From NCBI GenBank assembly GCA_028284885.1, contig JANQQW010000169.1:1-37655 (forward strand): a DNA stretch of 37,655 nt. The letters run 5' to 3'. This DNA is from Planctomycetaceae bacterium (GTDB lineage Bacteria; Planctomycetota; Planctomycetia; Planctomycetales; Planctomycetaceae). Below are positions 1 through 27,801 of this stretch, piece by piece (within the stretch, counting starts at the first letter, position 1; each line of letters starts with the position of its first letter). A model generated the notes under the pieces. It worked only from the letters and a program-made list of their open reading frames with translations. It did no database searches and was not told the origin of the DNA. The position numbers and the translations under genes are program-made.

Positions 1-825
1 GTCGGGCACGTCCTCCCAGATCCTCGCCACGCCGGTGCGACCGCGAGCCGCATGGGCCTGGTCGAGCAACTGCACGCGGCCGGTTCCGGCCCGGTCCTCG
101 CCCCCGACGTCGAGCGGTTCGCCGAAACGCTACGCGCGGTCCCCGACGTCGACGTCGTCGTGAACACGGAGGGCACTGTGCACCACGGTGCGGGCGACGC
201 CTACGCCCGTTGCGTGCGGCTCGCCAAAGAGGACGGCCGACACGTCCGGGTGACGAACGCCGTCCTTCAGGGACTCACTGAAGGGCAGGTTCGCGACCTC
301 GCGTTCGCCGACGTCATCGAGGTTCGCGAGACGGGCAGCTTGCGGGAGTGTCGCAAGGTGGGCCTCGAGGCGACGCTCGTTCCCGACTCGATCCACGCCG
401 CGACCTGGGCGAAGCCGACGCACTACACGCGGCGGCTCGACGGCTGCGTCGTCATCGGATGCGGGCACGAGCACGTCGTCGGCCGTACGTTCGAGCGGCT
501 CCACGAGCGGATTCCCGGTTCGGCCCGGTACACGATGACTGAGGCCGCGCCCGAGTGGCGGCACCTCGTGCCGAATCTCCGCCGGTGCCGGCTCTACGTG
601 ACGGGTCGCTACCACGCGCTCCTGGCGTGCTGGATCGCCGGCTGTCCCGTCGTCGTCTTGAACGGGGCCAACACGTCGAAGCTGCACGACCAGCTCGAGA
701 CGGTCGGCAGCCGGTGCCGCGTCTATGAGCTCGACGAGGCGCTCGCGGCCGTCGAGGCCGGGGTCAGCGCGGCTTGGGCCGAGTGGTGTCGTGCGGACGC
801 TGCCCGCTGGCTGGCTGCCACCTGA
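1..825 (+). CDS. Polysaccharide pyruvyl transferase-like protein, 5' end cut by the window
   Basis: The frame is open from the first base, so the gene begins upstream; the first internal ATG is at 52. The visible 274 residues carry a stretch with NTEGTVHHGAGDAY followed by a conserved 'TNAVLQ' strand, and near the C terminus TGRYHALLACWIAGCP. This pair resembles the 'NGEG..H' and '(S)R.H....A...G.P' motifs of polysaccharide pyruvyl transferases (CsaB/WcaK type), which attach pyruvate ketals to surface sugars using phosphoenolpyruvate. The histidine in GRYHA corresponds to the conserved functional histidine of the family (inference). It converges on the next gene with only four bases between the stops. 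It may be core genome next to the island or part of it; the left island end is not visible. An alternative is a GT-B-like glycosyltransferase relative. Confidence 0.7.
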   Translation, partial: VGHVLPDPRHAGATASRMGLVEQLHAAGSGPVLAPDVERFAETLRAVPDVDVVVNTEGTVHHGAGDAYARCVRLAKEDGRHVRVTNAVLQGLTEGQVRDLAFADVIEVRETGSLRECRKVGLEATLVPDSIHAATWAKPTHYTRRLDGCVVIGCGHEHVVGRTFERLHERIPGSARYTMTEAAPEWRHLVPNLRRCRLYVTGRYHALLACWIAGCPVVVLNGANTSKLHDQLETVGSRCRVYELDEALAAVEAGVSAAWAEWCRADAARWLAAT

Positions 826-829
826 GCTC

Positions 830-1309
830 TCACTTCCGCTTGCCGATCCATACTTGCCCCGGCTTCCGAAACCACGCGAAGTCGGTCCCGCGAATGACGA
901 CGACGCCGACTGGGTTCGCGCCCGACTCGATCCGACCGCGCATCTGTACCACCCCTGGGGCGACGACGGTGTAGCCGTGAGGCCGACTGTCCGAGCCGGC
1001 CGGCATCCACGATCTCGCTGTGAATCGAACACCTGCGGTGCGATCGCCATCGCGGTACGCCCACTCTGTCCCGATCAGCATTCTGCGGAAGTCGGCGATC
1101 GAGACCTTCGCAGTACCCAGTTCTCTCTGAACGGCCCTCGCTCCGTCCAAGTCTCCGGCCATCGTCTCCTCGCGGAGGATCGTCTCCAACGCTTCCGCGT
1201 ACTCGCGTCGTGCGGCTTCGACGGCGTCGGCGTAGTTCGCCTTCGCGACCTCGGCCTTTCGAGGAAGGTCTGCGCCGAATGCGACGAGGGCGATTAGGGC
1301 AGCTGGCAT
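830..1309 (-). CDS. Small exported coiled-coil protein with LIGTEW domain, unknown function
   Basis: A 159-residue protein. I start it at the ATG whose product begins with a short hydrophobic stretch (MPAALIALVAFGADLP), which reads as a signal peptide; the frame stays open upstream to about 1801, but that part has no protein-like character. After the signal, residues 15-65 are Ala/Glu/Arg-rich and helical (YADAVEAARREYAEALE), probably a coiled coil. Residues about 75-159 form a small beta-rich domain opening with LIGTEWAYRD and ending in WFRKPGQVWIGKRK. Small proteins with signal, helix and L-x-GT-x-W module are familiar as hypothetical proteins in planctomycetes, without a known role. It converges on the pyruvyl transferase-like gene and lies at the edge of the lower-G+C accessory region. 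Confidence 0.6.
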   Translation of the reverse strand: MPAALIALVAFGADLPRKAEVAKANYADAVEAARREYAEALETILREETMAGDLDGARAVQRELGTAKVSIADFRRMLIGTEWAYRDGDRTAGVRFTARSWMPAGSDSRPHGYTVVAPGVVQMRGRIESGANPVGVVVIRGTDFAWFRKPGQVWIGKRK

Positions 1310-1740
1310 GCGATCGACTCCGATTCGAATGGCGGCACATGTTCTGCTACAGCCTACCCAGTCCCGCTGATGGGGATCCATGTTCTGCAGACCCCGCCTG
1401 CGGCGTAGCCACCGCAACCGGCGACGATCGGGCTGATGGCCGACAAGACGTGCAGACGTCTGCGGGACCTGCACTCCCGTGTGTGGTGGATCTCTGCACC
1501 GCCTGCGGTGAGAATCAGGTACGGACAAATCGACACTGACGGTGCCGGGGGGGCGAGTCGGCGTGGGGCCCTCCAGCCCCGACTGCGCGTGGCACGAGCT
1601 CGGCACGATGGACGTTCTCATCTCCAAACTCGCTCCAAAGGCTCGACTGCAATCCACAGTCGCCAGAGACGGTCGAGACCGCAATCGCCAGAGTCTCAGT
1701 CTTGTACGCACAACTGTGACCCAGCAATAGAGGGCGCTCC
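1310..1740. other. 431-base non-coding stretch left of the DUF2235 gene
   Basis: No convincing gene was found in any frame. It contains a perfect 12-base palindrome, GCAGACGTCTGC, at 1452-1463. Just before the DUF2235 start there is a purine-rich AGAGGG at a plausible ribosome-binding distance from the ATG at 1741. Open frames here have arginine/serine-rich translations without motifs. The promoter of the DUF2235 gene should lie here, but I cannot place it. Confidence 0.4.
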
Positions 1741-3303
1741 ATGGCACTCTACGCATTTGACGGCACCTGGAACGATTCGAGTTCGCCGGGCCGGGACACA
1801 AGCAAGGACACGAACGTGCATCGCTTCCGTGCCCTCTACGAGGGCAACACCTTCTACCTGGACGGTGTCGGAACGCGCTGGGGGATCGTTGGACGACTCA
1901 TCGGAGGGGCGACAGGTGCCGGTGCTTCGAAGCGCGTCCACGAACAGTTCGCGAATCTGCAGCAAGCGTTCAAGTCTGGCGACGAAGTCGTTGACGTGGT
2001 CGGATACAGTCGAGGAGCCACGATCGCACGTCTGTTCGTGCAGCATGTCGAAGAGGCCTTCGACCTGATCGAGCGAGGAGACGGAACTCGACTGCAGGCG
2101 CCGCCGGCAGTGCGATTCCTGGGTCTATTCGACACGGTCGCCTCATTCGGCATTCCGTGGACCGACGACGACGGGTTCCGCAAGGAGATTCCCGACTTCG
2201 TTGAGAGTACCTTCCACGCTATGGCCCTCGACGAAACTCGGGAGACGTTCGGGATCGAACGGTGCCTCGGGAATCGCGCGAGAATCACCGAGGTCTGGTT
2301 CCGGGGAGGACACGGCGACATCGGCGGCAACGGCACGTACGACGATCGGGACAACGAAGAAAAGGCCAACCTGACTCGATCATTCATCGCGCTGAACTGG
2401 ATGGTGGCCAAGGCCAGGGCCTGCAACCTGCCCGTCGGTGAATCGACGAGCCTGCCCGATGCAGTTCCCGAGAACGCGGAAGCCGTGGTGACAACCCGCG
2501 AGGGGAGGATCAGCTTCGGGAACGCTGGAACACTCTCACGGCGCATTCATGTCGGTGACCTCGTACATCACACCGTCGAGCAGACGACACTGACTCACGG
2601 AATGGATGGCCGACTGCTGAGGCGGATCAGCGTGCCAACGAGGATCGAAGACAAGGTTCTGGAGCATGATGCCGAGGGGCTGAACTGGGCTCCGGAGCCA
2701 GGAGTCAGCGCCGGACCCGACAACATAGTGACTGCGGACTCGTACCCCTCTCTGCAGAACCTGAGCACCCGCCGCTATCCATTCGACGTCCTGCCCGCCC
2801 GGACCTGGCGTGCGTGGCTCGAGATCTGGGGATTGGACCAGCTCGACGAACCGGTCATCGAGGACGAACGGCTCGCCGAGTTCTGGTCGCCTTCGGCAGC
2901 AGACCGTGCCCTTGCCTGGGACGTCTACGTCGAACTGATGACCCGGATCACCGTTCAACGACTGAAGGACGATGAGGGGAACAGCAAGACTGCACTGGAG
3001 AGCGTGTACCAGTTGTTCCCGCTCTCCCGCGATGGCATGAAGAGGCACGGCGTCACTTGTGCCAACGCGGCGACGCTGATCACGATCTTTCTGAACACGC
3101 GAATCCGCTGGTTCACCGCCAAGTGGCATCCGCTCGCGGAATTGATCGACGAAGCCTCGGAGAAGTGTGATTCCGCTAAGTGCAGCGATTTCCGCACTGA
3201 GTTGAAGGACAGGATTCAGCCCACACTAAGCCTGCTGGCCGACGCACTCTCTGTCCTCTCCGACGCGAAGCTCTCCTCGACGGACATCGATGGCACAGCG
3301 TAG
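1741..3303 (+). CDS. DUF2235 (Tle1-like) alpha/beta-hydrolase protein
   Basis: A 520-residue protein of the DUF2235 family (T6SS phospholipase effector Tle1-like domain). The N terminus has the family opening FDGTWN, then GVGT (42-45). GYSRG (88-92) supplies the nucleophile elbow with Ser90, FLGLFDTV (126-133) supplies Asp131, and VWFRGGHGDIGG (185-196) supplies His191, so a complete Ser-Asp-His set is visible. Known members hydrolyse phospholipids as type VI effectors; others are of unknown role. No signal peptide is seen. The C-terminal half (about 290-520) is helical and unrecognised. No T6SS gene (VgrG, Hcp, PAAR) is in the window. It sits in an accessory region with two recombinases and upstream of a membrane-anchored LP-repeat protein on the same strand, which may be its partner (inference). 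G+C is lower than in the flanking core genes. Start chosen at the ATG with AGAGGG upstream. Confidence 0.85.
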   Translation: MALYAFDGTWNDSSSPGRDTSKDTNVHRFRALYEGNTFYLDGVGTRWGIVGRLIGGATGAGASKRVHEQFANLQQAFKSGDEVVDVVGYSRGATIARLFVQHVEEAFDLIERGDGTRLQAPPAVRFLGLFDTVASFGIPWTDDDGFRKEIPDFVESTFHAMALDETRETFGIERCLGNRARITEVWFRGGHGDIGGNGTYDDRDNEEKANLTRSFIALNWMVAKARACNLPVGESTSLPDAVPENAEAVVTTREGRISFGNAGTLSRRIHVGDLVHHTVEQTTLTHGMDGRLLRRISVPTRIEDKVLEHDAEGLNWAPEPGVSAGPDNIVTADSYPSLQNLSTRRYPFDVLPARTWRAWLEIWGLDQLDEPVIEDERLAEFWSPSAADRALAWDVYVELMTRITVQRLKDDEGNSKTALESVYQLFPLSRDGMKRHGVTCANAATLITIFLNTRIRWFTAKWHPLAELIDEASEKCDSAKCSDFRTELKDRIQPTLSLLADALSVLSDAKLSSTDIDGTA

Positions 3304-10820: not shown

Positions 10821-12785
10821 TCAGACGACCGCCTTCGGACCGTCCGGGACCTCGCCGTCGATCCACGTCCGGTGCCAGCACTCCAGCACGAGCAACGACC
10901 ACAACCGGGCCCCGTGGTCGAACCGGTGTTCGGAGTGATCCTTGAGGAGTCGGCGGATCTCGGACTCGACGAAGTAGCCGCGTTCCAGGCTGCGGCGGTC
11001 GAGTAGGCAACCCTGCACGAACTCTCGCAGCTCGTTGCGGAACCAGTGGCCGAGCGGCACGCCGAACCCCATTTTCGGCCGGTTCCTGACCGAAGGGGGC
11101 AGCAGCTCGGAGAAGGTCTGCGTCAGCACGTGCTTGCCGCGTCGCCCCCTCAGCTTCAGTTCGACCGGCATCTTGGCGGCGAGTTCGACGACGTGATGGT
11201 CGAGGAACGGACTGCGGCACTCGAGGCCGTGGGCCATGGTGGCGACATCGACCTTCCTCAGGATGTCGCACGGCAGGTAGGTCAGCACGTCGGCGCAGGT
11301 CGTCCGAGTGACGAAGTCGCGTCCCGGACAGGTCTGGAAGGCGTTCTGCAGGAAGTCGGCCGGATCCCGTTCGCCGATCGCCGCCTTCATCTCGGGCGAC
11401 AGCAACCCGCCCCACACCTCCGGGTCGAAGATCGCAATCCAGTTGAGGTACCGCCGCTCCGGGGGTTGGTCGACCACCTTCAGGAACCGCTGGGCTCGCC
11501 GCAGGTACGACCCCTGCTCGCTCGGCGTCGGCAGCTTCTGCCACAGGTCCCAGCCGAAGACCGATCGGGCGAACCTCGGCAGGGCGTCGATCATCCCGGC
11601 GAGTCGCACGGCCTGGTAACGGTTGTAGCCGCCGAACAGCTCGTCGCCGCCGTCGCCGGAGAGGGCGACCGTCACGTCCGACCGCGTCGTCTCGGCGAGC
11701 GCCATCGTCGGGATCGCGGAGCTGTCGGCGAACGGCACGTCGTAGTGCCACGCGAGCTTCGGCAACACCTTGACCGCCGCGGCCTCGACGACCCGCTCGT
11801 GGTGCTGGGAACCGATCGTCGAGGCGACCTCGCGGGCGTAGTCACGTTCGTCGAAGCTCGCCTCGGAGAAGCCGATCGAGAACGTGTGGATCGGCGACCC
11901 GCTCAGCCGTTGCATCAACCCGGCGACGATCGACGAGTCGATGCCGCCCGAGAGAAACGCCCCGATCGGCACGTCGCTCCGCATCCGCAAGCGGACCGAC
12001 TCCGTCAGTCGGTCGTGCAGTTCGCGGCTCCAGCGGTCCGGCGACCAGCCGGACGTGTCTTCCGGGACGGTGTCCTCCTCCTCGCGGCCGGGCTCGTAGG
12101 GTGGCGTCCAGTAGCGACGGACGTCGAGCTTGCCCTTCTCGAAGACAGCAAGATGCGCCGGTGGGATCTCGCGGTAGCCCTTCAGGATCGAGGTCGAGTG
12201 CGGCACGTACTGGTAGACGAGGTACTGCCACAACGCGAAGCGGTCGATCTCCCGCGGCGCTCCGGGCACCTGCAGCAGGGCCTTCATCTCGCTGGCGAAG
12301 TAGAGGTGCCGGCCGTCGCGACGAACGAACAGCGGCTTCTGTCCGAGCCGGTCGCGAACCAGCACGAGCCGGCCCTTCCCGGCGTCCCACAGGGCGAACG
12401 CGAACATGCCGCGGAGCCGCTCGACGAGACCGAAGCCGTACTCCTCGTACGCGTGGACGAGGACCTCGGTGTCCCCGTCGGTCCGGAACCGGTGTCCGCG
12501 GCTCTGCAGTTCCTCGCGCAGCTCCAGGTAGTTGTAGATCTCGCCGTTGAAGGAGACCCAGACGGTCTCGTCCTCGTTCGCCATCGGCTGTGGGCTGCCT
12601 TCGACGTCGATGATCGACAGCCGCCGGTGCCCGAGTGCGGCCCCGGCTCGGTCGTCACGGGCGTCGAGGTGGAAGCCGTCGGCGTCGGGTCCGCGGTGGG
12701 CGAGGACGCGGGTCATCCGCTCGAGGACCTCGCGCTGCAGAGGCCGCGCCCCCTTCTCCCAGGCCGCCCCGGCGATGCCGCACAC
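10821..12785 (-). CDS. asnB: Asparagine synthase (glutamine-hydrolysing)
   Basis: A 654-residue class II (Ntn) glutamine amidotransferase-type asparagine synthetase. I start it at GTG 12785 because Cys2 in MCGIAGA must be the N-terminal nucleophile after Met removal, and because GAGGAGG lies 6 bases upstream, a strong ribosome-binding site for this window. The glutaminase domain (1-210) shows LAHRGPDADG, GHRRLSIID, SFNGEIYNY and RDRLGQKPLF. The synthetase domain shows the ATP-pyrophosphatase loop LSGGIDSS (278-285) and SGDGGDELFGGY. It makes asparagine from aspartate, glutamine and ATP. Being 11 bases downstream of a glycosyltransferase, it may instead belong to a surface-polysaccharide pathway, where AsnB-like enzymes amidate sugar acids or peptide parts (inference). 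The frame stays open upstream, but that part overlaps the glycosyltransferase gene. Confidence 0.95.
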   Translation of the reverse strand: MCGIAGAAWEKGARPLQREVLERMTRVLAHRGPDADGFHLDARDDRAGAALGHRRLSIIDVEGSPQPMANEDETVWVSFNGEIYNYLELREELQSRGHRFRTDGDTEVLVHAYEEYGFGLVERLRGMFAFALWDAGKGRLVLVRDRLGQKPLFVRRDGRHLYFASEMKALLQVPGAPREIDRFALWQYLVYQYVPHSTSILKGYREIPPAHLAVFEKGKLDVRRYWTPPYEPGREEEDTVPEDTSGWSPDRWSRELHDRLTESVRLRMRSDVPIGAFLSGGIDSSIVAGLMQRLSGSPIHTFSIGFSEASFDERDYAREVASTIGSQHHERVVEAAAVKVLPKLAWHYDVPFADSSAIPTMALAETTRSDVTVALSGDGGDELFGGYNRYQAVRLAGMIDALPRFARSVFGWDLWQKLPTPSEQGSYLRRAQRFLKVVDQPPERRYLNWIAIFDPEVWGGLLSPEMKAAIGERDPADFLQNAFQTCPGRDFVTRTTCADVLTYLPCDILRKVDVATMAHGLECRSPFLDHHVVELAAKMPVELKLRGRRGKHVLTQTFSELLPPSVRNRPKMGFGVPLGHWFRNELREFVQGCLLDRRSLERGYFVESEIRRLLKDHSEHRFDHGARLWSLLVLECWHRTWIDGEVPDGPKAVV

Positions 12786-12796
12786 GTCGATCCTCC

Positions 12797-13912
12797 TCAG
12801 TTCGCGAGTACGCGACGGTACACGTCGACGTGGCCGGCGACCATCGCCTCGACCGAGAAGTCCGACCGCATCCGCTCTCGACCGGCCTCGCCCATCCGCC
12901 TTGCCGCCTCCGGGTCGGCGAGCAGGCGGTCGGTCCACTGGGCGAAGGCGGTCGCGTCGCCGACCGGCACGAGGTAGCCGGTCTCGCCGTCGACGACGAG
13001 TTCGCGATTCGCCGGGATTTCGCTCGCCACGACCGGCTTCCCCGCCGCCATCGCCTCCATCACGGCGTTCGACTGCCCCTCGAAGTCGCTCGCGATCCAG
13101 AACACGTCCGTCGTCGCCAGCAACTCCGGCACGTCCTCGCGATGGCCAGCGAAGTGCACGAGGTGCGCACACTCGAACTCCCGCGCCAGGTCCCCGACCT
13201 TTCGTCGTTCTGGACCTTCTCCGACGACCAACAGGTGCACGTCGTCCGTCAGCTGCCGGAGGATCTGCATGGCCCACACGAGGTCGAAGACACGTTTCTG
13301 GCGGGCGAGACGCCCCACGGTGACAACGACGCGAGCGGACTCGGGGATCTCGAACTCGGCCCGCAATCCGGCGTCCGAGCGAGGAGTCGGGGAATCGTCG
13401 TCGATGACAATGCCGTTCGGCACCACGCTGATCCGCTCGGCCGGGTAGCCGAGTTCTCCGTAGAAGTCGGCGACGGGCGGGGAGTTCGCGACCAGCCAAG
13501 CCGTCCGGTCGATCTGGCGACGATCGAGCCAGCGCTGCCAGCCGGCCTTCCACGAGTCGACGCACCGCTCCGAGACGACGACTCGCGGCCCCCCTGCCCC
13601 GCCGGTCACGAGTCGCGTGTACGCGTTCGCCGTGAACATCCAGGAGTTGACAACGTCCGGCTGCCAGTCCCGGATTCGCGACCTCAGCCGCCACAGCGTC
13701 GCCGGGTCGAACTTCCACCGCTTGCCGAGCACCTCGACCGGCACGCCGGCCGCCTCGATCCGCTCTGCGTAGGGGCCGCCGCGGACGAGGGCGACCACCC
13801 GCACGTCGAACTCGTCGCGAGGCAGTTGCTCGGCGAGCAGTGTCAACTGCTTCTCCGCACCGGAGCGGTCGAGCGTCGGGATGACGAGCAGCAGTTTGAT
13901 CATCGAATTCAC
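12797..13912 (-). CDS. GT4-family glycosyltransferase
   Basis: A 371-residue GT-B glycosyltransferase of the GT4 group (RfaB/WcaL-like). The N-terminal Rossmann domain begins IKLLLVIPTLDRSGAEKQ, with the glycine-rich acceptor loop. The second domain opens at ISVVPNGI (about 162-169) and RVVVTVGRLARQKRV. The donor-binding E-x7-E motif is visible in FEGQSNAVMEAMAAGKP. It transfers a sugar from an activated donor to a lipid- or cell-surface acceptor in the cytoplasm. ATG 13912 is taken as the start; a second Met three codons on is an equal option. The stop overlaps the ribosome-binding site of asnB, so the two are translated from one message. Confidence 0.9.
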   Translation of the reverse strand: MNSMIKLLLVIPTLDRSGAEKQLTLLAEQLPRDEFDVRVVALVRGGPYAERIEAAGVPVEVLGKRWKFDPATLWRLRSRIRDWQPDVVNSWMFTANAYTRLVTGGAGGPRVVVSERCVDSWKAGWQRWLDRRQIDRTAWLVANSPPVADFYGELGYPAERISVVPNGIVIDDDSPTPRSDAGLRAEFEIPESARVVVTVGRLARQKRVFDLVWAMQILRQLTDDVHLLVVGEGPERRKVGDLAREFECAHLVHFAGHREDVPELLATTDVFWIASDFEGQSNAVMEAMAAGKPVVASEIPANRELVVDGETGYLVPVGDATAFAQWTDRLLADPEAARRMGEAGRERMRSDFSVEAMVAGHVDVYRRVLAN

Positions 13913-20479: not shown

Positions 20480-23377
20480 TCAGTCGAACCGGAGTTCGAC
20501 GTCCGCGATCTCGTACGGCGTGACGTTGACGATCACCGCGTCGTCCTGGATCGGCAGTGTGCCGATGGTCCGGCCCTCGAAGTCCCGTTGCCGTGCGTAG
20601 CTCGGCGTTCGGAACAGCCGGAGCTTCACCTCGCGACGTCGCCCCTCGGTCTCGACGAGCCGAACTGCGAAGCCGTTGCCGGCTGGCACCTCGTCGCGGG
20701 TTCCCTCGTCGTCCGGTCGGACGGCGACGGGGTCCGGATCCAGCAGCGGCAGGACCGCGGTGAGCTGCACGTTCTTCGCCGAGAGGTGGAAGAACCAGCC
20801 GGTCGCCCCGGAGTTCGGCCGGCCGCCGTTCGTCGGGAGGACGACCGGCGGGACGAGCGCGTCGAGCGCCGCCTGCATGGGGTACGGGTCGTCCACGGTG
20901 ATCGCGAAACGGAAGTGCCGCTGCTCCTCCCCCTCGACGACCATCAGCGAGTCGATCATGCGGTCGCCCGACTTGCGGTGGAAAGGCAGGCCGAACGGGA
21001 CGATCGTGGTGCGCTCGTCGCCCGTGTTGGCGATCTCGACGAAGTGCAGGCTCTCGATCCGCTCCCCGCTGGAGAGGTGGGCCTGACCGAGGACCGAGCG
21101 GCCGACGGCGGCCGTCGTCTCGTTCCACGCGAACCGCGAGGCGACGTACTCGTTCCACGGGCTCCCCTCGGGCATCCGCTTCACGTCGAGCACGACGGCG
21201 ACGTCGAGCGTCCGCCGTCCCCGCCACAGGCGGAACCGCTGCGAGAACCGTGCGAGCACGCTGCCGTCGGACGGGTCGAGCAGGTTGCCCCGCGTGACGA
21301 CCTCGGCGAAGGCCGGGCCGGTCGAGGTGACGTCGGTCCCCGTGCACTCCATCGACGAGTAGAACGTCCGGGTGGGCTCGCCCCCTCCCTCCGGGGCGGG
21401 GATCGTCTTCTCGTGGGCGAACCGCATGGCGAGCTGCTGGCTGAGCCGGTTCGGCTTCCGCCCGAACTCCTTGATCGTGTGGATGCCTCCGGTCGTCGGG
21501 CTGACGTGCACCTCGAAGAACTCGTTCCGCATCACGAGTTCCTCCTCGTCGACGAGGCTCTCGTGCTCCCCGTCCGGTCCCGACGTCGACTCGCCGACCG
21601 GGAACCAGGCGAACCCGCAGGCGGGCACCTCCACGAGAGCGGCCAGGCTGTCGCCGTCCTTCTGGGCGACCTTCACCGGTCCGGCGAGATCGACCGCCTC
21701 GACCGCGGGCAGATCACAGGCGACGCGGCGCTGGAAGGAGAGCGGGTTGAAGACGAGTCGCCCGGGCGGGGCGTCGCCCGGGGTCAGAACGAGTTCGGCG
21801 AGTTGTCCGGCGGAGGACTGCATCCAGCCGTACACGCTCGCGTCGAGGTCGGCCGGGGCGGCGTCGTTCGGATCGGGGCCGCCGGACTCCACGGCCTCGG
21901 ACCACTCCGTTTGCAAGTCGGTCTGCGGCGGGCGGCCGAGTAGTGCCGCGGCCGTGTTCCGCAGCCAAGAGCCGGCCTCGTGGTACGTGCGGCGAGTCAG
22001 ATGCGATGCATATCGGCCGAGCGGCGAGGACTCCTTCCGGGCGACGGCCTGTACCAAGAACGGTGACAGGTACTCGCTCTCGCGGTAGGTCGAGAGCCGG
22101 CCGGGCATCTCCGTTCGCTCGGAGAAGGTCTCGAAGGTGACGAACTCGCCGAGGACCGGGGCGTACTTCGACATGCGGACGAGGTCGTCGAGCCACGGGG
22201 TCTTCACCTCCGGCCAGCGGGCGAAGACGACGGCCGCCACCTGGTCCATGTCCATCGCCTCCGCCATTCTCTGCGAGAAGCGGAGGAAGCTGACGGCCGA
22301 GTCGCCGGCGAGCGGGATGCGGGAGACGGCGTCGACCACGGAGCCGTCGCACCCTTCCCACCGCTCCTTGCTCCCCTCGGCGTCCGGGTAGAAGCCGTCG
22401 TCGAGGATGACGTGCAGGGCGGTGTGGTAGCCGGACCGGGTGAGAATCTGCGGGAGCAGCGTACTGAGGCCGAAGCGTCGCCGTCCCCACGTTCGCGGCG
22501 GCTTGCCGAACCGTTCGCGGAAGACCGCCCGGCCACTCTCGAACTCGTGCAGCAGCGAGCCGAGCGGCAGCAGCGTGGTGGGCCGTTCCCGGTACTCCCC
22601 GCCGACGACGTCGAGCGTTCCCCGCTCGTGGGCGGCCCGGACCGCCTCGAGTGCCTCGGCGGACTCGCGGGCGATCTCGTCGAGGTCGGTCCCGCAGACG
22701 AGCAGGTTCTTCGGCTGGTCCGTTCCGGCCGTCCGCACGAGGTGGTCGTCGGCCAGTTCGGGAATCAGGAGGCAGAGGTCGAGCAGGTAGCAGTCGACCG
22801 GGTAGAACCGCTCGCGGGCCTCGTGGAGCGCCTCGAAGCAGCGGCGGAGGTGGGCGCGAGTCGCCTCGGCGTCGCCGGCGACCGCGGACTCGGCGGCCGC
22901 AATCCCCTCCCGCTGCAGCTGGGCGTCGTCGAGGTTGCTGAAGTGGTGCATGTGCCGCGTGAGCAACTCGATCTGCAGCCAGCAGCTGCCCAGGGCGTGG
23001 AAGTCGGCGACGAGTTCGGCATCGACCTCCGGCACGTCCTGCAGGCCGGACAACGCTTTCGCGACCACGTCGGCACGTTCTTCGACGCTGCGGACGACCG
23101 TGGCCCCCTCGCTCTCGGCACGCGTTGCCCAGCCGCCCGGCAGCCACTCCTCCGCAGGTTCGGGAACGAAGACGACGCGGGTGCCGATGTCGCTCGGCGG
23201 CTCGTCGGCCCGTTCCCAGGTGGGAATCGACTTCTTCGCGGCGACCAAGGCGGGATGCCAGGCGGCGGCGAAGGCGTTCAGCAGGCTGCTGGCCGGGCCC
23301 TCCCCCAGTTCCGTGGGGAAGTCCTCCAAGCCGTGGCTGGGGATCAGGACGACGATGTCCTCGCGGCTCTCCGACAC
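20480..23377 (-). CDS. Large GH38-like (alpha-mannosidase-related) protein lacking the expected catalytic Asp
   Basis: A 965-residue protein, started at GTG 23377 with GAGGGA just upstream. No signal peptide is seen. The layout follows glycoside hydrolase family 38: an N-terminal alpha/beta region opening VVLIPSHGLEDFP, a helical middle, and from about 560 a beta-rich C-terminal region (PPGRLVFNPLSFQRRV, NEFFEVHVSPTTGGIHTI, RFSQRFRLWRG). The stretch GRAVFRERFGKPPRTW then GRRRFGLSTLLPQIL aligns with the GH38 'fG...W.pDtFG.s..lPqil' block, but the nucleophile Asp is replaced by Arg. The HxD metal motif also appears as HGLED. It may thus be a non-catalytic relative or use another mechanism. Gene is alone on its strand; function unknown. 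Confidence 0.6.
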   Translation of the reverse strand: MSESREDIVVLIPSHGLEDFPTELGEGPASSLLNAFAAAWHPALVAAKKSIPTWERADEPPSDIGTRVVFVPEPAEEWLPGGWATRAESEGATVVRSVEERADVVAKALSGLQDVPEVDAELVADFHALGSCWLQIELLTRHMHHFSNLDDAQLQREGIAAAESAVAGDAEATRAHLRRCFEALHEARERFYPVDCYLLDLCLLIPELADDHLVRTAGTDQPKNLLVCGTDLDEIARESAEALEAVRAAHERGTLDVVGGEYRERPTTLLPLGSLLHEFESGRAVFRERFGKPPRTWGRRRFGLSTLLPQILTRSGYHTALHVILDDGFYPDAEGSKERWEGCDGSVVDAVSRIPLAGDSAVSFLRFSQRMAEAMDMDQVAAVVFARWPEVKTPWLDDLVRMSKYAPVLGEFVTFETFSERTEMPGRLSTYRESEYLSPFLVQAVARKESSPLGRYASHLTRRTYHEAGSWLRNTAAALLGRPPQTDLQTEWSEAVESGGPDPNDAAPADLDASVYGWMQSSAGQLAELVLTPGDAPPGRLVFNPLSFQRRVACDLPAVEAVDLAGPVKVAQKDGDSLAALVEVPACGFAWFPVGESTSGPDGEHESLVDEEELVMRNEFFEVHVSPTTGGIHTIKEFGRKPNRLSQQLAMRFAHEKTIPAPEGGGEPTRTFYSSMECTGTDVTSTGPAFAEVVTRGNLLDPSDGSVLARFSQRFRLWRGRRTLDVAVVLDVKRMPEGSPWNEYVASRFAWNETTAAVGRSVLGQAHLSSGERIESLHFVEIANTGDERTTIVPFGLPFHRKSGDRMIDSLMVVEGEEQRHFRFAITVDDPYPMQAALDALVPPVVLPTNGGRPNSGATGWFFHLSAKNVQLTAVLPLLDPDPVAVRPDDEGTRDEVPAGNGFAVRLVETEGRRREVKLRLFRTPSYARQRDFEGRTIGTLPIQDDAVIVNVTPYEIADVELRFD

Positions 23378-23775
23378 GTTTCCCTCGCGATGAAGACTGG
23401 GAACCGCCGATCATACCGCTCCGCGGCCCACTTCTCACGCCGCGGGAGCAGACTTCGACGACGGACGGCGTCCAACGGGAATTCCCCGGAATTCGTAGGA
23501 AACCTTGGAACGCGACGAGAGTGCCACGCGTCCAAGGGGATGTCGAATTCACGGGTTCTCTTCCATTCCTTTTCCCGGCGTTCGGCAGACGACCCCTCGC
23601 GTTTTCTCGGGGGGAGCGCTCGTCCTTCTCCGCGGGCCTGCGGAACCACCTCTCGTCATCCAGATCGAATCCGCCACCCGTGATGGTGCGTTCGTCGCGG
23701 AACTCCAGTTCCGGGAAGAGGATCGGCACGACCCGACCCCTCCTCGACGAAGTTCCGGACGGCCGTTGGCCCTCA
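23378..23775. other. Non-coding stretch between the GH38-like gene and the pilM-type promoter
   Basis: About 400 bases with somewhat lower G+C and pyrimidine-rich runs around 23560-23600. Minus-strand frames are open but without recognised motifs, and I assign no gene. It holds the divergent leader regions of the GH38-like gene and the pilM-type operon. Confidence 0.4.
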
Positions 23776-23805
23776 TTGACTGTGGCAAAACCCGCGTGCT
23801 AGGCT
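23776..23805 (+). promoter_or_regulatory. Sigma70-type promoter of the pilM-type operon
   Basis: TTGACT (23776-23781) and TAGGCT (23800-23805) are separated by 18 bases and lie 84 bases before the ATG at 23890. This is the best -35/-10 pair seen in the window. Confidence 0.55.
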
Positions 23806-23889
23806 GAATTTACGTTTCAATCCGTCTCTCGGGCGGCCGGTGCTCTCCGGGCGTTCGGGGCAGCGGTTTCGACAATCGGAGGGTCCTCC

Positions 23890-26091
23890 ATGCCGGAATC
23901 CCGTGGTGTCTGGGGAATCGAGATCGGCCAAGCCGGTCTGAAGGCCATTCGGCTGCGGTACGCCGAGGCTGCCAAGCAGGTGATCGCGGTCGCGTTCGAC
24001 TACGTCCCGCACCCCAAGATTCTGAGCCAGCCGGACGCCATTCCGGAGGAACTGGTCCCCAAGGCCCTCGAGACGTTCCTGTCCCGGAACTCGATCGCGG
24101 GCGACAAGGTCTGCATCGGCGTCCCCGGTCAGTCGGCCCTCACACGGTTCATCCAGTTGCCGCCGGTCGAGTCGAACCGCGTCGCGGAAATCGTGAAGTA
24201 CGAGGCGCGGCAGCAGATCCCATTCGACCTCGAGGACGTGATCTGGGACTACCAACGCGTCGGCGGCGGCATGGAGGAGAGCGGGTTCCTGCTCGAGGCC
24301 GAGGTCGGCCTGTTCGCCATGAAGAAGGAACAGGTCCACGCGGCCCTGCAGCCGTTCGTCGACCAGAAGGTCGAAGTGGACGTGATCCAGGTCGCGCCGC
24401 TCGCCCTGTACAACATGCTCTCGTACGACCAGCTCGGCATCCGCATCGAGGAGGAAGGGCAGATTCCCGACGGCGAGGACGAGCACACCATCGTCGTCGA
24501 CATGGGAGCCGACAACTCCACGCTGCTCGTCTCCAACGGCGAGAAGATCTGGATTCGCAACGTCCCGGTGGGGGGCAACCACTTCACCCGGGCCCTCACC
24601 AAGGAGATGAAGCTCACCTTCGCCAAGGCCGAGCACCTCAAGTGCAACGCTACCAAGGCCCCGGATCCGCGAGCCGTCTTCCAGGCGCTCCGCCCGGTCT
24701 TCAACGACTACGTCTCCGAGATCCAGCGGTCGATCGGCTACTTCTCCAGCGTCAACCGCGAGGCGTCGATCAAGCGGGTCCTCGGCGTCGGCAACGGCTT
24801 CAAGCTGGCCGGCCTGCAGAAGTTCCTGCAGCAGAACCTGCAGTACGAGGTCGAGCGGATCGACACGTTCAAGGGGCTCGTGGGGGACAACGTCCTGGGC
24901 GACCCGGTCTTCCAGGAGAACGTGCTCGGCTTCGCCGTGCCGTACGGGATGGCCCTCCAGGCACTCGGCGTGACGCCGATCCACACGTCGCTGCTCCCGC
25001 CGGAGATCACCCGCGCCCGAGCCATCCGCAAGAAGAAGCCGTGGGCCGTGGCGACGGCGGCCACACTGCTGTTCGGACTGGCCACGTCGGTGGCGGTCGG
25101 CGCAGGGGCGCTGATGAGCGTCGAGAACGAGGACTGGGAGAAGGCGAAGAAGGCCGCTCTCGACCTGAAGGGAGCCGTCGACGCGGACCGGACGGCCTAC
25201 AACAAGGCGACCGAGGAGAGCAAGCAGATCGACCAGAAGATCGGTCGGCTCGTCGAGCCGTTCGAGGACCGGTTCAAGTGGCCGGAACTCTACAAGGCCG
25301 TCTACGACTGCATGCCCCACACGCCACCCGGCGTGGTGGAGGAGCAGGGGGTCGAGAAGCTGTCCGAGCAGGAGCGGATGAAGCTCGTCTCGCTGCGGGC
25401 GGTCGAGGTTCCGGACCTCGCCAAGTGGTGGGACGCCCGTGTGAACGACCCGCAGAGCAGCACGCTGGGCAAGGCCCCCGCCGACATCGCCAACCCGCCG
25501 TCCGGCCCCGGCTACGTCGTGGAGCTGAAGGGCCAGCACTACCACCACGTGCCGGAGAAGCAGAACGACGTCGGCGTGCAGTACGTCATCACCAGGCTGC
25601 TGGCCAACCTGCACCAGTGGGAGGTCAAGAACCCGAACACCAACCTGATGACGCCCGTCCGCGACGCCGGCATCAGCCACGCCTTCGTGGTCTCCTTCGT
25701 CACGCCGCAGGAAGTGCGGATCCTGAAGAACCAGGACGAGGGAGGTGACGTCGCCGCCCGGGCTCGGGCGGCCGTCGCCGCAGAGGCCGCCAACCGGGAC
25801 ACGCTCGAGGACGAGCTGTACGTCACACTGCGTGAGACGTCCTTCGTCGTCGAGTTCGCCTGGCAGCCGTTCACCCGGACCGAGCGTCTGAAGTTCACCG
25901 CCCTGCGGCCGTTGTTCGCCCAGAGCCAGAACGCGGCCGCCGTCACGCTGCCCGAGGCCCAGGCCGTGCTGACGAACTCCACGAACCTCGAGGTTCGCGG
26001 TCTGGGCCTGACGACCGAGGAACTCGAACGATTCAAGGCGTGGTACGCCGCCGGGCAGGTGCCCGCGACCCCGACCGGAACCACCAACTAG
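23890..26091 (+). CDS. pilM: PilM-type ATPase fused to a membrane segment and large extracytoplasmic region
   Basis: A 733-residue protein. Residues 1-375 are a PilM/FtsA-like actin-fold domain: WGIEIGQAGLKAIRLR (8-23), GVPGQSALTRFIQLP, IVKYEARQQIPFDLEDV (a PilM hallmark), HTIVVDMGADNSTLLV and KRVLGVGNGFKLAGL. Normal PilM ends near 350 residues and is cytoplasmic. Here it continues through KKKPWAVATAATLLFG into a transmembrane helix (about 384-405), then 330 residues that begin with a coiled coil (EDWEKAKKAALDLKGAV). That order matches PilM followed by PilN, so the gene is probably a PilM-PilN fusion extended at the C terminus. PilM binds ATP and links the pilus motor to the inner-membrane PilN-PilO-PilP complex. 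First gene of a three-gene operon behind a good promoter; the next gene starts 30 bases on. Confidence 0.8.
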   Translation: MPESRGVWGIEIGQAGLKAIRLRYAEAAKQVIAVAFDYVPHPKILSQPDAIPEELVPKALETFLSRNSIAGDKVCIGVPGQSALTRFIQLPPVESNRVAEIVKYEARQQIPFDLEDVIWDYQRVGGGMEESGFLLEAEVGLFAMKKEQVHAALQPFVDQKVEVDVIQVAPLALYNMLSYDQLGIRIEEEGQIPDGEDEHTIVVDMGADNSTLLVSNGEKIWIRNVPVGGNHFTRALTKEMKLTFAKAEHLKCNATKAPDPRAVFQALRPVFNDYVSEIQRSIGYFSSVNREASIKRVLGVGNGFKLAGLQKFLQQNLQYEVERIDTFKGLVGDNVLGDPVFQENVLGFAVPYGMALQALGVTPIHTSLLPPEITRARAIRKKKPWAVATAATLLFGLATSVAVGAGALMSVENEDWEKAKKAALDLKGAVDADRTAYNKATEESKQIDQKIGRLVEPFEDRFKWPELYKAVYDCMPHTPPGVVEEQGVEKLSEQERMKLVSLRAVEVPDLAKWWDARVNDPQSSTLGKAPADIANPPSGPGYVVELKGQHYHHVPEKQNDVGVQYVITRLLANLHQWEVKNPNTNLMTPVRDAGISHAFVVSFVTPQEVRILKNQDEGGDVAARARAAVAAEAANRDTLEDELYVTLRETSFVVEFAWQPFTRTERLKFTALRPLFAQSQNAAAVTLPEAQAVLTNSTNLEVRGLGLTTEELERFKAWYAAGQVPATPTGTTN

Positions 26092-26121: not shown

Positions 26122-27801
26122 ATGGAGAAGCTGCAGGCGTTGCTCGTCCACCGCTTCTGGTTGCTGTTCGGTGCCGTGCTGCTCGTCCCCATCGTCGGAT
26201 GGTGGATCGCCAGCGGCAGCCTCTCCTCGAAGACGGCCGCGGCGACCGACGACATCAAGGCCGCCAAGAACGCCCTGCCCGCGGGCGTCGGACTGCCCAA
26301 CTCGAAGTACGTCGAGGGGGCCGAGGGCGTCACCAAGCAGAAGCAGGCGCTCTACGACCAGGAGTTCCAGCGGCTGTGGGACCGCCAGAAGGCACTGATG
26401 ACCTGGCCGGTCGGCATGGAGTCGATGAGCCGGTACGACTTCGAGGCGTCGATCAGCGACGCGGACCGGCTCCAGTACCAACTCCGCTACAACGACGAGG
26501 TCGAGCGGATTCGCGAACTGCTTCCCGAGTACGACCCCCAGACCGAGCAGGGAATCGTGCTGCTCGAGGGGGCGACCCTGCCGTTCGTCGACACGAACCA
26601 GGCTTGGCGTGGCCGGTCGCCCTCGTCTCAACAGGCTTGGGACGCCCAGATGGACAACTGGTTCACGGAGGCGATCTTCAAGGCGATCCGTTCGGTCAAC
26701 GGGACCGTGGAGGGGACCGAGCAGACGATCCGCGACGCAGCCGTCCGCCAGATCACAACCCTGATCTACAAGGGGGGAAGCCGGGGCGGTGACACGGCCG
26801 TGGCGGCGGATCCCGCGAACATGGAGGGGCAACCCGAAGGGGGCCTCGTGCCGGGCGGCGTCAACGCGGCGTTCGACCTGTTCGGTAGCACGACCGGCGG
26901 CGGCGGCGGGCGGAACGAGTCGTTCGGCGGCAGCGGCGGCGGCAACAACGTCGCCAGCCCGTCGAACATCGACGTCGATCCGGCGAAGATCTTCGGCGAC
27001 GCCCGCATCCAGTCGACCACCGACGGCACGCTCTCGGAAGGCAACCAACCGGCCGGCCCCCTCGGAGCATTCGGCGGCAACACCCAGCAGAACGCGGCCG
27101 AACGTCGCTACATCGACGACGACGAGACGCTCCCCTACCGGACCCGCGGCTTCTACCTGCACGTCGTCGTCCGGAACGACGCTGTCCCGGACCTGCTGCT
27201 CGCCTTGTCCAACATGGACTGGCCGACGACAATCGTGCACGTGCACGTGGCCGAGGCCCATCCCGCACGGCTGGAACGTGCCAACGCGGGCGGGGCGTTC
27301 GAGGGTGGCGGAGGCGGCGGCGGCTTCGAACGGCCCGGCGTCGGTGGCTTCCCCCCTCGTGCCGGTCTGGGCGGTCTCGGCGGCGTCCGTCCCCGTCCGG
27401 GCGGAGAAGGAAGCGGCGGGACGTCGGGTGGTCTGCACACCTCCGCGCTCGGGCCGGGCAACGGTCTGGCGCAAGTCGTGATCGCCGGCGTGATGACGAT
27501 CTACAACGAGCCGAAGAAGGAAGAGAACGCCGAGTCGACGGAGTCGTCCGATCCCGGCACGCCAGAGTCGGCCGAGTCCTCCGAGACGACCGAGCCCGAT
27601 GACGAGACGCCCGCGAACGATCCCGACGCGGATCCGGCCGAAACGGACACAACCGACCGTGCCGACGCCACGACACCGGTCGGCACGCCGGCCGACGAAG
27701 CCGATTCCGATCCTGCTGACGCGGGATCGTCGGGAACCGAACCGGCCGACGCGACGTCCAATTCCAGTACCGAAGCCGAGCCGACGGACGGCGGTCGCTG
27801 A
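26122..27801 (+). CDS. Single-pass membrane protein, probable PilO-like partner, with Gly-rich and acidic regions
   Basis: A 559-residue protein with a transmembrane helix at 13-31 (WLLFGAVLLVPIVGWWIAS) after a short basic N terminus. Residues 40-230 are mainly helical (coiled-coil-like). Then come two glycine-rich segments (about 254-276 and 392-433) around a small alpha/beta domain, TRGFYLHVVVRNDAVPDLL followed by NMDWPTTIVHVHVAE (near 341-378), of the ferredoxin-like type found in PilO. The last ~100 residues are low complexity, dominated by Glu, Asp, Ser, Thr and Ala. Placement after the PilM fusion and this domain suggest the PilO role in the inner-membrane pilus platform (inference). 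Unlike PilO (about 200 residues) it is much enlarged. Confidence 0.6.
   Translation: MEKLQALLVHRFWLLFGAVLLVPIVGWWIASGSLSSKTAAATDDIKAAKNALPAGVGLPNSKYVEGAEGVTKQKQALYDQEFQRLWDRQKALMTWPVGMESMSRYDFEASISDADRLQYQLRYNDEVERIRELLPEYDPQTEQGIVLLEGATLPFVDTNQAWRGRSPSSQQAWDAQMDNWFTEAIFKAIRSVNGTVEGTEQTIRDAAVRQITTLIYKGGSRGGDTAVAADPANMEGQPEGGLVPGGVNAAFDLFGSTTGGGGGRNESFGGSGGGNNVASPSNIDVDPAKIFGDARIQSTTDGTLSEGNQPAGPLGAFGGNTQQNAAERRYIDDDETLPYRTRGFYLHVVVRNDAVPDLLLALSNMDWPTTIVHVHVAEAHPARLERANAGGAFEGGGGGGGFERPGVGGFPPRAGLGGLGGVRPRPGGEGSGGTSGGLHTSALGPGNGLAQVVIAGVMTIYNEPKKEENAESTESSDPGTPESAESSETTEPDDETPANDPDADPAETDTTDRADATTPVGTPADEADSDPADAGSSGTEPADATSNSSTEAEPTDGGR

Follow-up and report, generated by a model that had tools for sequence, protein, structure and literature searches.

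The window analysed here, a stretch of 37,655 nucleotides forming contig JANQQW010000169.1 of a Planctomycetaceae bacterium, encodes on its minus strand a 965-residue protein, a class-wide variant of the GH38 fold with divergent catalytic residues. The nucleophile Asp and the His of the HxD motif are both replaced, and since these two tested features define GH38, the protein ought not to be classified among the GH38 enzymes. No signal peptide was seen by eye, the N-terminus being a short polar stretch that leads into a predicted strand; the protein is probably cytoplasmic, with another job than cutting sugars. The gene and its parts are located as follows.

20480–23377, minus strand: GH38-like gene, 965 aa, GTG start (ORF list, Pfam GH38N, relatives, hhalign over residues 147–963)
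23030–23374, minus strand: N-terminal alpha/beta segment, about residues 2–116 with an approximate boundary (high AlphaFold2 pLDDT, outside the GH38 alignment)
22766–22789, minus strand: equivalent of the GH38 HxD motif, YLLDLCLL, residues 197–204, with Leu198 for the His and D200 for the Asp (MAFFT, hhalign, family alignment)
22466–22489, minus strand: nucleophile block WGRRRFGL, residues 297–304, with R300 (codon 22478–22480) in the Asp column (phmmer, MAFFT, hhalign, family alignment)

GH38 homology and the catalytic positions

The window protein matches the GH38 N-domain above the Pfam cut-off at residues 234–321 (27.6 vs 25 bits, E 2.4e-6), while the GH38 C-terminal domain leaves only a trace below cut-off and the GH57 catalytic domain also stays below it (13.3 vs 21.2 bits, E 0.051); the NCBIfam models gave zero matches. 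The GH38N domain is also found in 16 of 26 diverse family members, with E values up to 0.01. By sequence, the best match among solved structures is the GH38 alpha-mannosidase 7uft (phmmer, E 7e-4), and the rows for CDK2 (E 1.2–1.4) were taken as chance. When a profile of 67 family members was compared by hhalign with 15 canonical GH38s of the phylum, residues 147–963 were aligned over 747 columns, with an E value of 1.9e-32 that holds for this one comparison.

The full-length protein was modelled with AlphaFold2 from 16 input sequences (mean pLDDT 61.8, pTM 0.53), and the first 39 Foldseek rows for this model are all GH38 (E 6.5e-16 to 9.8e-10), with Ams1 as the best, to which VIA aligned 482 residues with a Z of 18.2 and an rmsd of 5.9. 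A model of the N-domain (residues 2–484), also built from 16 sequences and with a mean pLDDT of 58.1, had a GH38 at E 1.6e-3 as its best Foldseek match, so that none reached 0.001, and its Z in VIA was at most 5.4. Residues 2–116 were left with no fold assignment by these searches, which need not mean a new fold. The active-site stretch, residues 295–355, has a pLDDT below 50 in the full-length model and is no better in the N-domain model. The protein is homologous to GH38, and the structural part of this assignment is that of a predicted model; the doubt that the structure might not be GH38, left standing by the first-pass annotation, is answered over most of the length as far as so weak a model allows.

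Compared with GH38 enzymes of the Ams1 and Bl_Man38 kind (PDB 7vqo, 6lz1, 7ufr–7uft), the protein shares the predicted fold over about residues 118–964 including the C-terminal beta domains, the W...FG....PQI block, and the GG and W.G.DG motifs. It differs in that the nucleophile Asp and the HxD His are replaced in the whole family, that the 'GDGGGGP' and 'HRGTYT' blocks are not preserved, the alignment being loose there, and that its N-terminal segment is unaligned, the local hhalign alignment beginning at residue 147 and that of VIA at about 116. This segment has a near-invariant H41-P42 pair (H41 in 63 of 65 and P42 in 65 of 65 readable rows). Golgi alpha-mannosidase II (dGMII) is matched with a Foldseek E of 3e-12 and weaker and a VIA Z of about 12; the catalytic residues of GMII, as given in PMC13204073, are the Zn ligands His90, Asp92 and His471, the nucleophile Asp204 and the acid/base Asp341, and the window protein has no equivalents of Asp204 and His90. 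The CE4-family pseudoenzyme BA3943 (PDB 7bkf) is, by the title of its entry, likewise a carbohydrate-active-enzyme fold without activity; it belongs to another family with another chemistry, and its weak VIA match to residues 208–294 (Z 3.1) may be merely a common arrangement.

In the phmmer alignment to 7uft, 'WLPDSFG' stands opposite 'WGRRRFG' in a gapless block, so that the Asp falls on R300, counting the initial Met as residue 1, and MAFFT and hhalign give the same column. The Asp that defines the GH38 [PIV]DxFG block (Asp204 of dGMII) is absent from the window protein, just as had been read from the sequence at the outset. The family alignment has 67 rows, to which 54 genomes of the relatives search (all 59 except G005, G008, G019, G035 and G049) and 13 further loci contributed; 11 of these loci are 71–95% alike, so the residue counts are not independent. 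One row is too short at the nucleophile column, and in the other 66 Asp is never found: the letters are R in 50, Q in 6, K in 5, Y in 2, and H, A and T in one each. Homologues carrying the Asp, which would have made this a single decayed copy, were accordingly not among them. Conservation of the Arg across species had been named as a check, and here only the loss of Asp holds throughout; Arg is the commonest letter, and with Gln, Lys, Tyr and others in the column it is 'not Asp' rather than 'Arg' that is conserved.

For comparison, 21 canonical candidates were fetched, of which L090–L092, failing to match the family profile at E 1e-3, stayed unaligned. The remaining 18 were aligned together with the family by MAFFT, and Asp is present in the nucleophile column in 15, the canonical GH38s of the phylum (15 of 15), and missing in L125, L132 and L133. 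L132 and L133 are GH38-like proteins of members of the phylum that have an EEEF-like sequence in the nucleophile block instead of DxFG.

The metal-binding motif had been placed at HGLED, which was wrong: HGLED is residues 15–19, within the N-terminal segment and outside the GH38 alignment, and the canonical HxD (for example AHIDTAWLW) aligns by MAFFT and hhalign to YLLDLCLL, with LLD at residues 198–200. The His column has L in 54, W in 6, F in 3 and other residues in 3 of the 66 readable rows, and D200 is kept in 63 of 66, so that of the His and Asp pair of Zn ligands that defines GH38 (His90 and Asp92) the Asp alone is retained. The 'HRGTYT' block of canonical bacterial GH38s, presumably the site of the Zn ligand His471, faces 'SEYLSP' at residues 434–439 in a gapped and loose alignment. 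Around the general acid/base Asp341 the alignment of the family to the canonical enzymes is too loose for a column to be assigned.

Other residues are well kept. Across members that are 24–54% identical to the window protein, the family retains H41-P42, R188, D200, G260, W340, R353, N544, G630, R748, D809 and E909-T910. Several charged residues in the barrel half recur in 83–95% of the readable rows, in members down to 24% identity (R299 in 58 of 66, H322 in 58 of 67, D326 and R353 in 63 of 67 each), and E264 is a further conserved acid in this half. To judge from the alignment, D200, E264, R299, H322, D326 and R353 would be expected in a site that still works, less so in a dead pocket.

Distribution and selection

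The gene is found in all 59 genomes of the relatives search, that of the window included, and, at E ≤1e-20, in 282 of the 297 genomes sampled within the class, which we take to be Planctomycetia. A single odd genome as the source of the Asp loss was rejected on these two counts and on the dN/dS values given below. Of the 15 class genomes with no match, among which misses are possible since two first-look candidates were scored per genome, eight belong to family f88, where the gene is found at E 1e-20 in only 4 of 12 genomes; this gap may reflect lineage-specific loss or fast divergence. In a draw of 199 genomes from the phylum, 12 genomes had a full-length match above 1000 bits, all of them of the same family or class, and the next best match had 113 bits (in G200). 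The other 46 matching genomes gave partial matches, and those that were fetched and aligned are mostly ordinary GH38s. No relative of the protein was found on viral contigs.

A quick tree of 40 sequences, with SH-aLRT support only, places 22 family members in one group (98) and the 15 canonical enzymes apart from them (99). The conserved scaffold without the expected catalysis that the first-pass annotation had described is supported: the family forms a single clade, occurs in nearly all of the class and lacks the Asp in every readable row. The nearest relative outside the family is L125 (G200; 179–2710, plus strand), an 844-aa GH38-like protein from another class in which the nucleophile Asp and the His of the HxD motif are likewise missing and the HxD Asp is kept. 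Unlike the family members it is not a full-length orthologue (113 bits), and it stands beside the family on a long branch (1.98), which makes its placement unsure; it may be a second loss, either independent or sister to the first. The other GH38N match in the genome of the window, L046 (contig C210, 1–2019, minus strand), is a GH57 alpha-amylase/4-alpha-glucanotransferase (Pfam 4.7e-40 and 4.8e-54), and adjoins an ORF that by eye resembles galT, which is ordinary.

The gene is under purifying selection in the one subclade analysed, with dN/dS (NG86) of 0.07–0.17 in 55 pairs among 11 sequences. No match in the 59 genomes has an internal stop, although some end at contig ends. A decaying relic or a frame mis-called in high-GC DNA might have been suspected from the lost catalytic residues and the many antisense ORFs of the region, but both are refuted, the relic by the intact frames, the low dN/dS and the near-universal presence in the class, and the mis-called frame by the relatives, the class-wide presence and the dN/dS; hardly any weight is left to either.

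Gene neighbourhood

Upstream, the GH38-like gene faces a type IV pilus assembly gene, pilM, and the following features make up this side of the locus.

23378–23889, no strand: upstream region shared by the GH38-like gene and pilM (gap between matches 297–1157 bp in 26 genomes)
23890–26091, plus strand: pilM (type IV pilus assembly PilM), head-to-head neighbour (Pfam PilM_2 1.6e-30, TIGR01175)
26122–27801, plus strand: second gene of the pilM side, no Pfam match (a relative follows pilM in other loci)

Both models match the window pilM above their cut-offs (PilM_2 106.7 vs 27 bits, TIGR01175 160.2 vs 133). Its product is a long PilM resembling Amuc_1101 (NF045709, E 1e-61, below cut-off) and has a long C-terminal part past the PilM domain. 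The head-to-head arrangement is present in 26 of the 59 genomes, with 297–1157 bp between the matches, and is distributed by family: 21 of 37 genomes in f1, 4 of 4 in f5 and 1 of 1 in f6 have it, as against 0 of 7 in f2, 0 of 6 in f3, 0 of 3 in f4 and 0 of 1 in f7. These counts may be too low, since some genomes are fragmented and two have no pilM match. In the neighbour search pilM and a relative of the second gene occur together at 18 loci.

On the other side, a gene on the same strand starts at most 240 bp away or overlaps at 15 of 44 loci. This gene is a cytidylate kinase (cmk), as found by scanning the copy at L038 (Pfam 2.7e-68), and all 15 sequences are alike. In the window the GH38-like gene is not followed by it, the downstream neighbour being instead the convergent rpmA. 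In families f2, f3 and f4 the neighbour search found no conserved neighbour of the GH38-like gene, and the clusters other than pilM, its follower and cmk were dismissed as opposite-strand ORFs of the same genes, protein kinases and noise. The order of a divergent pilM followed by the GH38-like gene and cmk may be ancestral. The head-to-head arrangement with pilM and the downstream cytidylate kinase are described here as new.

Elsewhere in the window, 1741–3303 on the plus strand encodes a Tle1-like phospholipase catalytic domain (PF09994, 1.9e-33), and an asparagine synthase ORF of 965 aa occupies 10821–13718 on the minus strand. The glutaminase domain of the latter begins only near residue 356, and its true start is probably further downstream.

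Possible functions

Our leading explanation, tentatively held, is that of a vertically inherited cytoplasmic protein of the GH38 fold that has lost the alpha-mannosidase machinery and now works by binding. It is of GH38 descent, the clade as a whole has neither the nucleophile Asp nor the His of the HxD motif, and the gene is retained in nearly all of the class under purifying selection. The rebuilt catalytic pocket, which keeps D200 and has R299, R300, H322, D326 and R353, would bind a ligand; to go by the types of these residues, this putative ligand may be an anionic or phosphorylated sugar, or a sugar-nucleotide. The protein would then have the part of a sensor, a carrier or a scaffold, not that of a hydrolase. 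In the weakest step of the scheme, its conserved position with the pilM operon on one side and cmk on the other points to a housekeeping or envelope- or pilus-related role. Several observations weigh against parts of this explanation. The conserved charged residues would suit a new active site equally well, and with a pLDDT below 50 over residues 295–355 their sharing of one pocket is putative; pilM is non-adjacent in 33 of the 59 genomes, including all 16 of f2, f3 and f4, and the window gene itself is followed by the convergent rpmA in place of cmk.

The main rival is a new enzyme on the GH38 fold, a possibility that we rank nearly as likely as binding. Its rebuilt pocket (D200, E264, R299, H322, D326 and R353) would act on a putative substrate such as a phosphorylated sugar or a sugar nucleotide by a mechanism other than the metal and Asp of GH38. 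The retention of the charged residues in distant members and the strong purifying selection speak for it, but no clear sugar-pathway gene adjoins the GH38-like gene in the window or in the neighbour search. It is improbable that the protein is still a glycosidase of the GH38 type whose nucleophile or metal ligand has migrated to a neighbouring acid: D200 is kept and the acids D326 and E264 are conserved, but the fixed spacing from the W to the FG gives a shift no space, the HxD motif has lost its His as well, and in the loose alignment there the 'HRGTYT' block is not conserved. The arrangement with pilM in 26 genomes from three families would also fit an accessory protein of type IV pili that works with PilM/PilN in the cytoplasm and in which the GH38 fold is a mere scaffold for protein-protein contacts. 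We hold this to be rather unlikely, as the gene is unlinked to pilM in 33 of the 59 genomes, f7 being wholly unlinked as well as f2, f3 and f4, the gene order may be plain inheritance, and cmk, a housekeeping gene, is as closely linked on the other side; a pilus role is a lead from gene order only.

A more far-reaching scenario, which we regard as doubtful, starts with the recruitment of a GH38-fold protein at the base of Planctomycetia. This protein would have lost its glycosidase chemistry once and gained a new arginine-rich site and the N-terminal segment, and would now be a cytoplasmic component of nearly all members, with a new activity or a sensing function connected with their envelope or pilus.

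In a literature search that had most subscription papers and preprints outside its reach, no paper on this family was found. Among the essential proteins of Planctopirus limnophila, PMC10632474 reports 108 phylum-specific ones of unknown function, and the main text of that paper makes no mention of mannosidase, glycosid or pilM; the main text of PMC11131199 makes no mention of 'GH38', and none of the terms sought are present in PMC12283558. Counts of CAZymes made with GH38 models may score this protein as an alpha-mannosidase in Planctomycetes in spite of its missing catalytic residues. Maintained by purifying selection in about 95% of a class whose cell biology is unusual, and with the enzyme chemistry removed, the gene is a concrete candidate for biology specific to that class.
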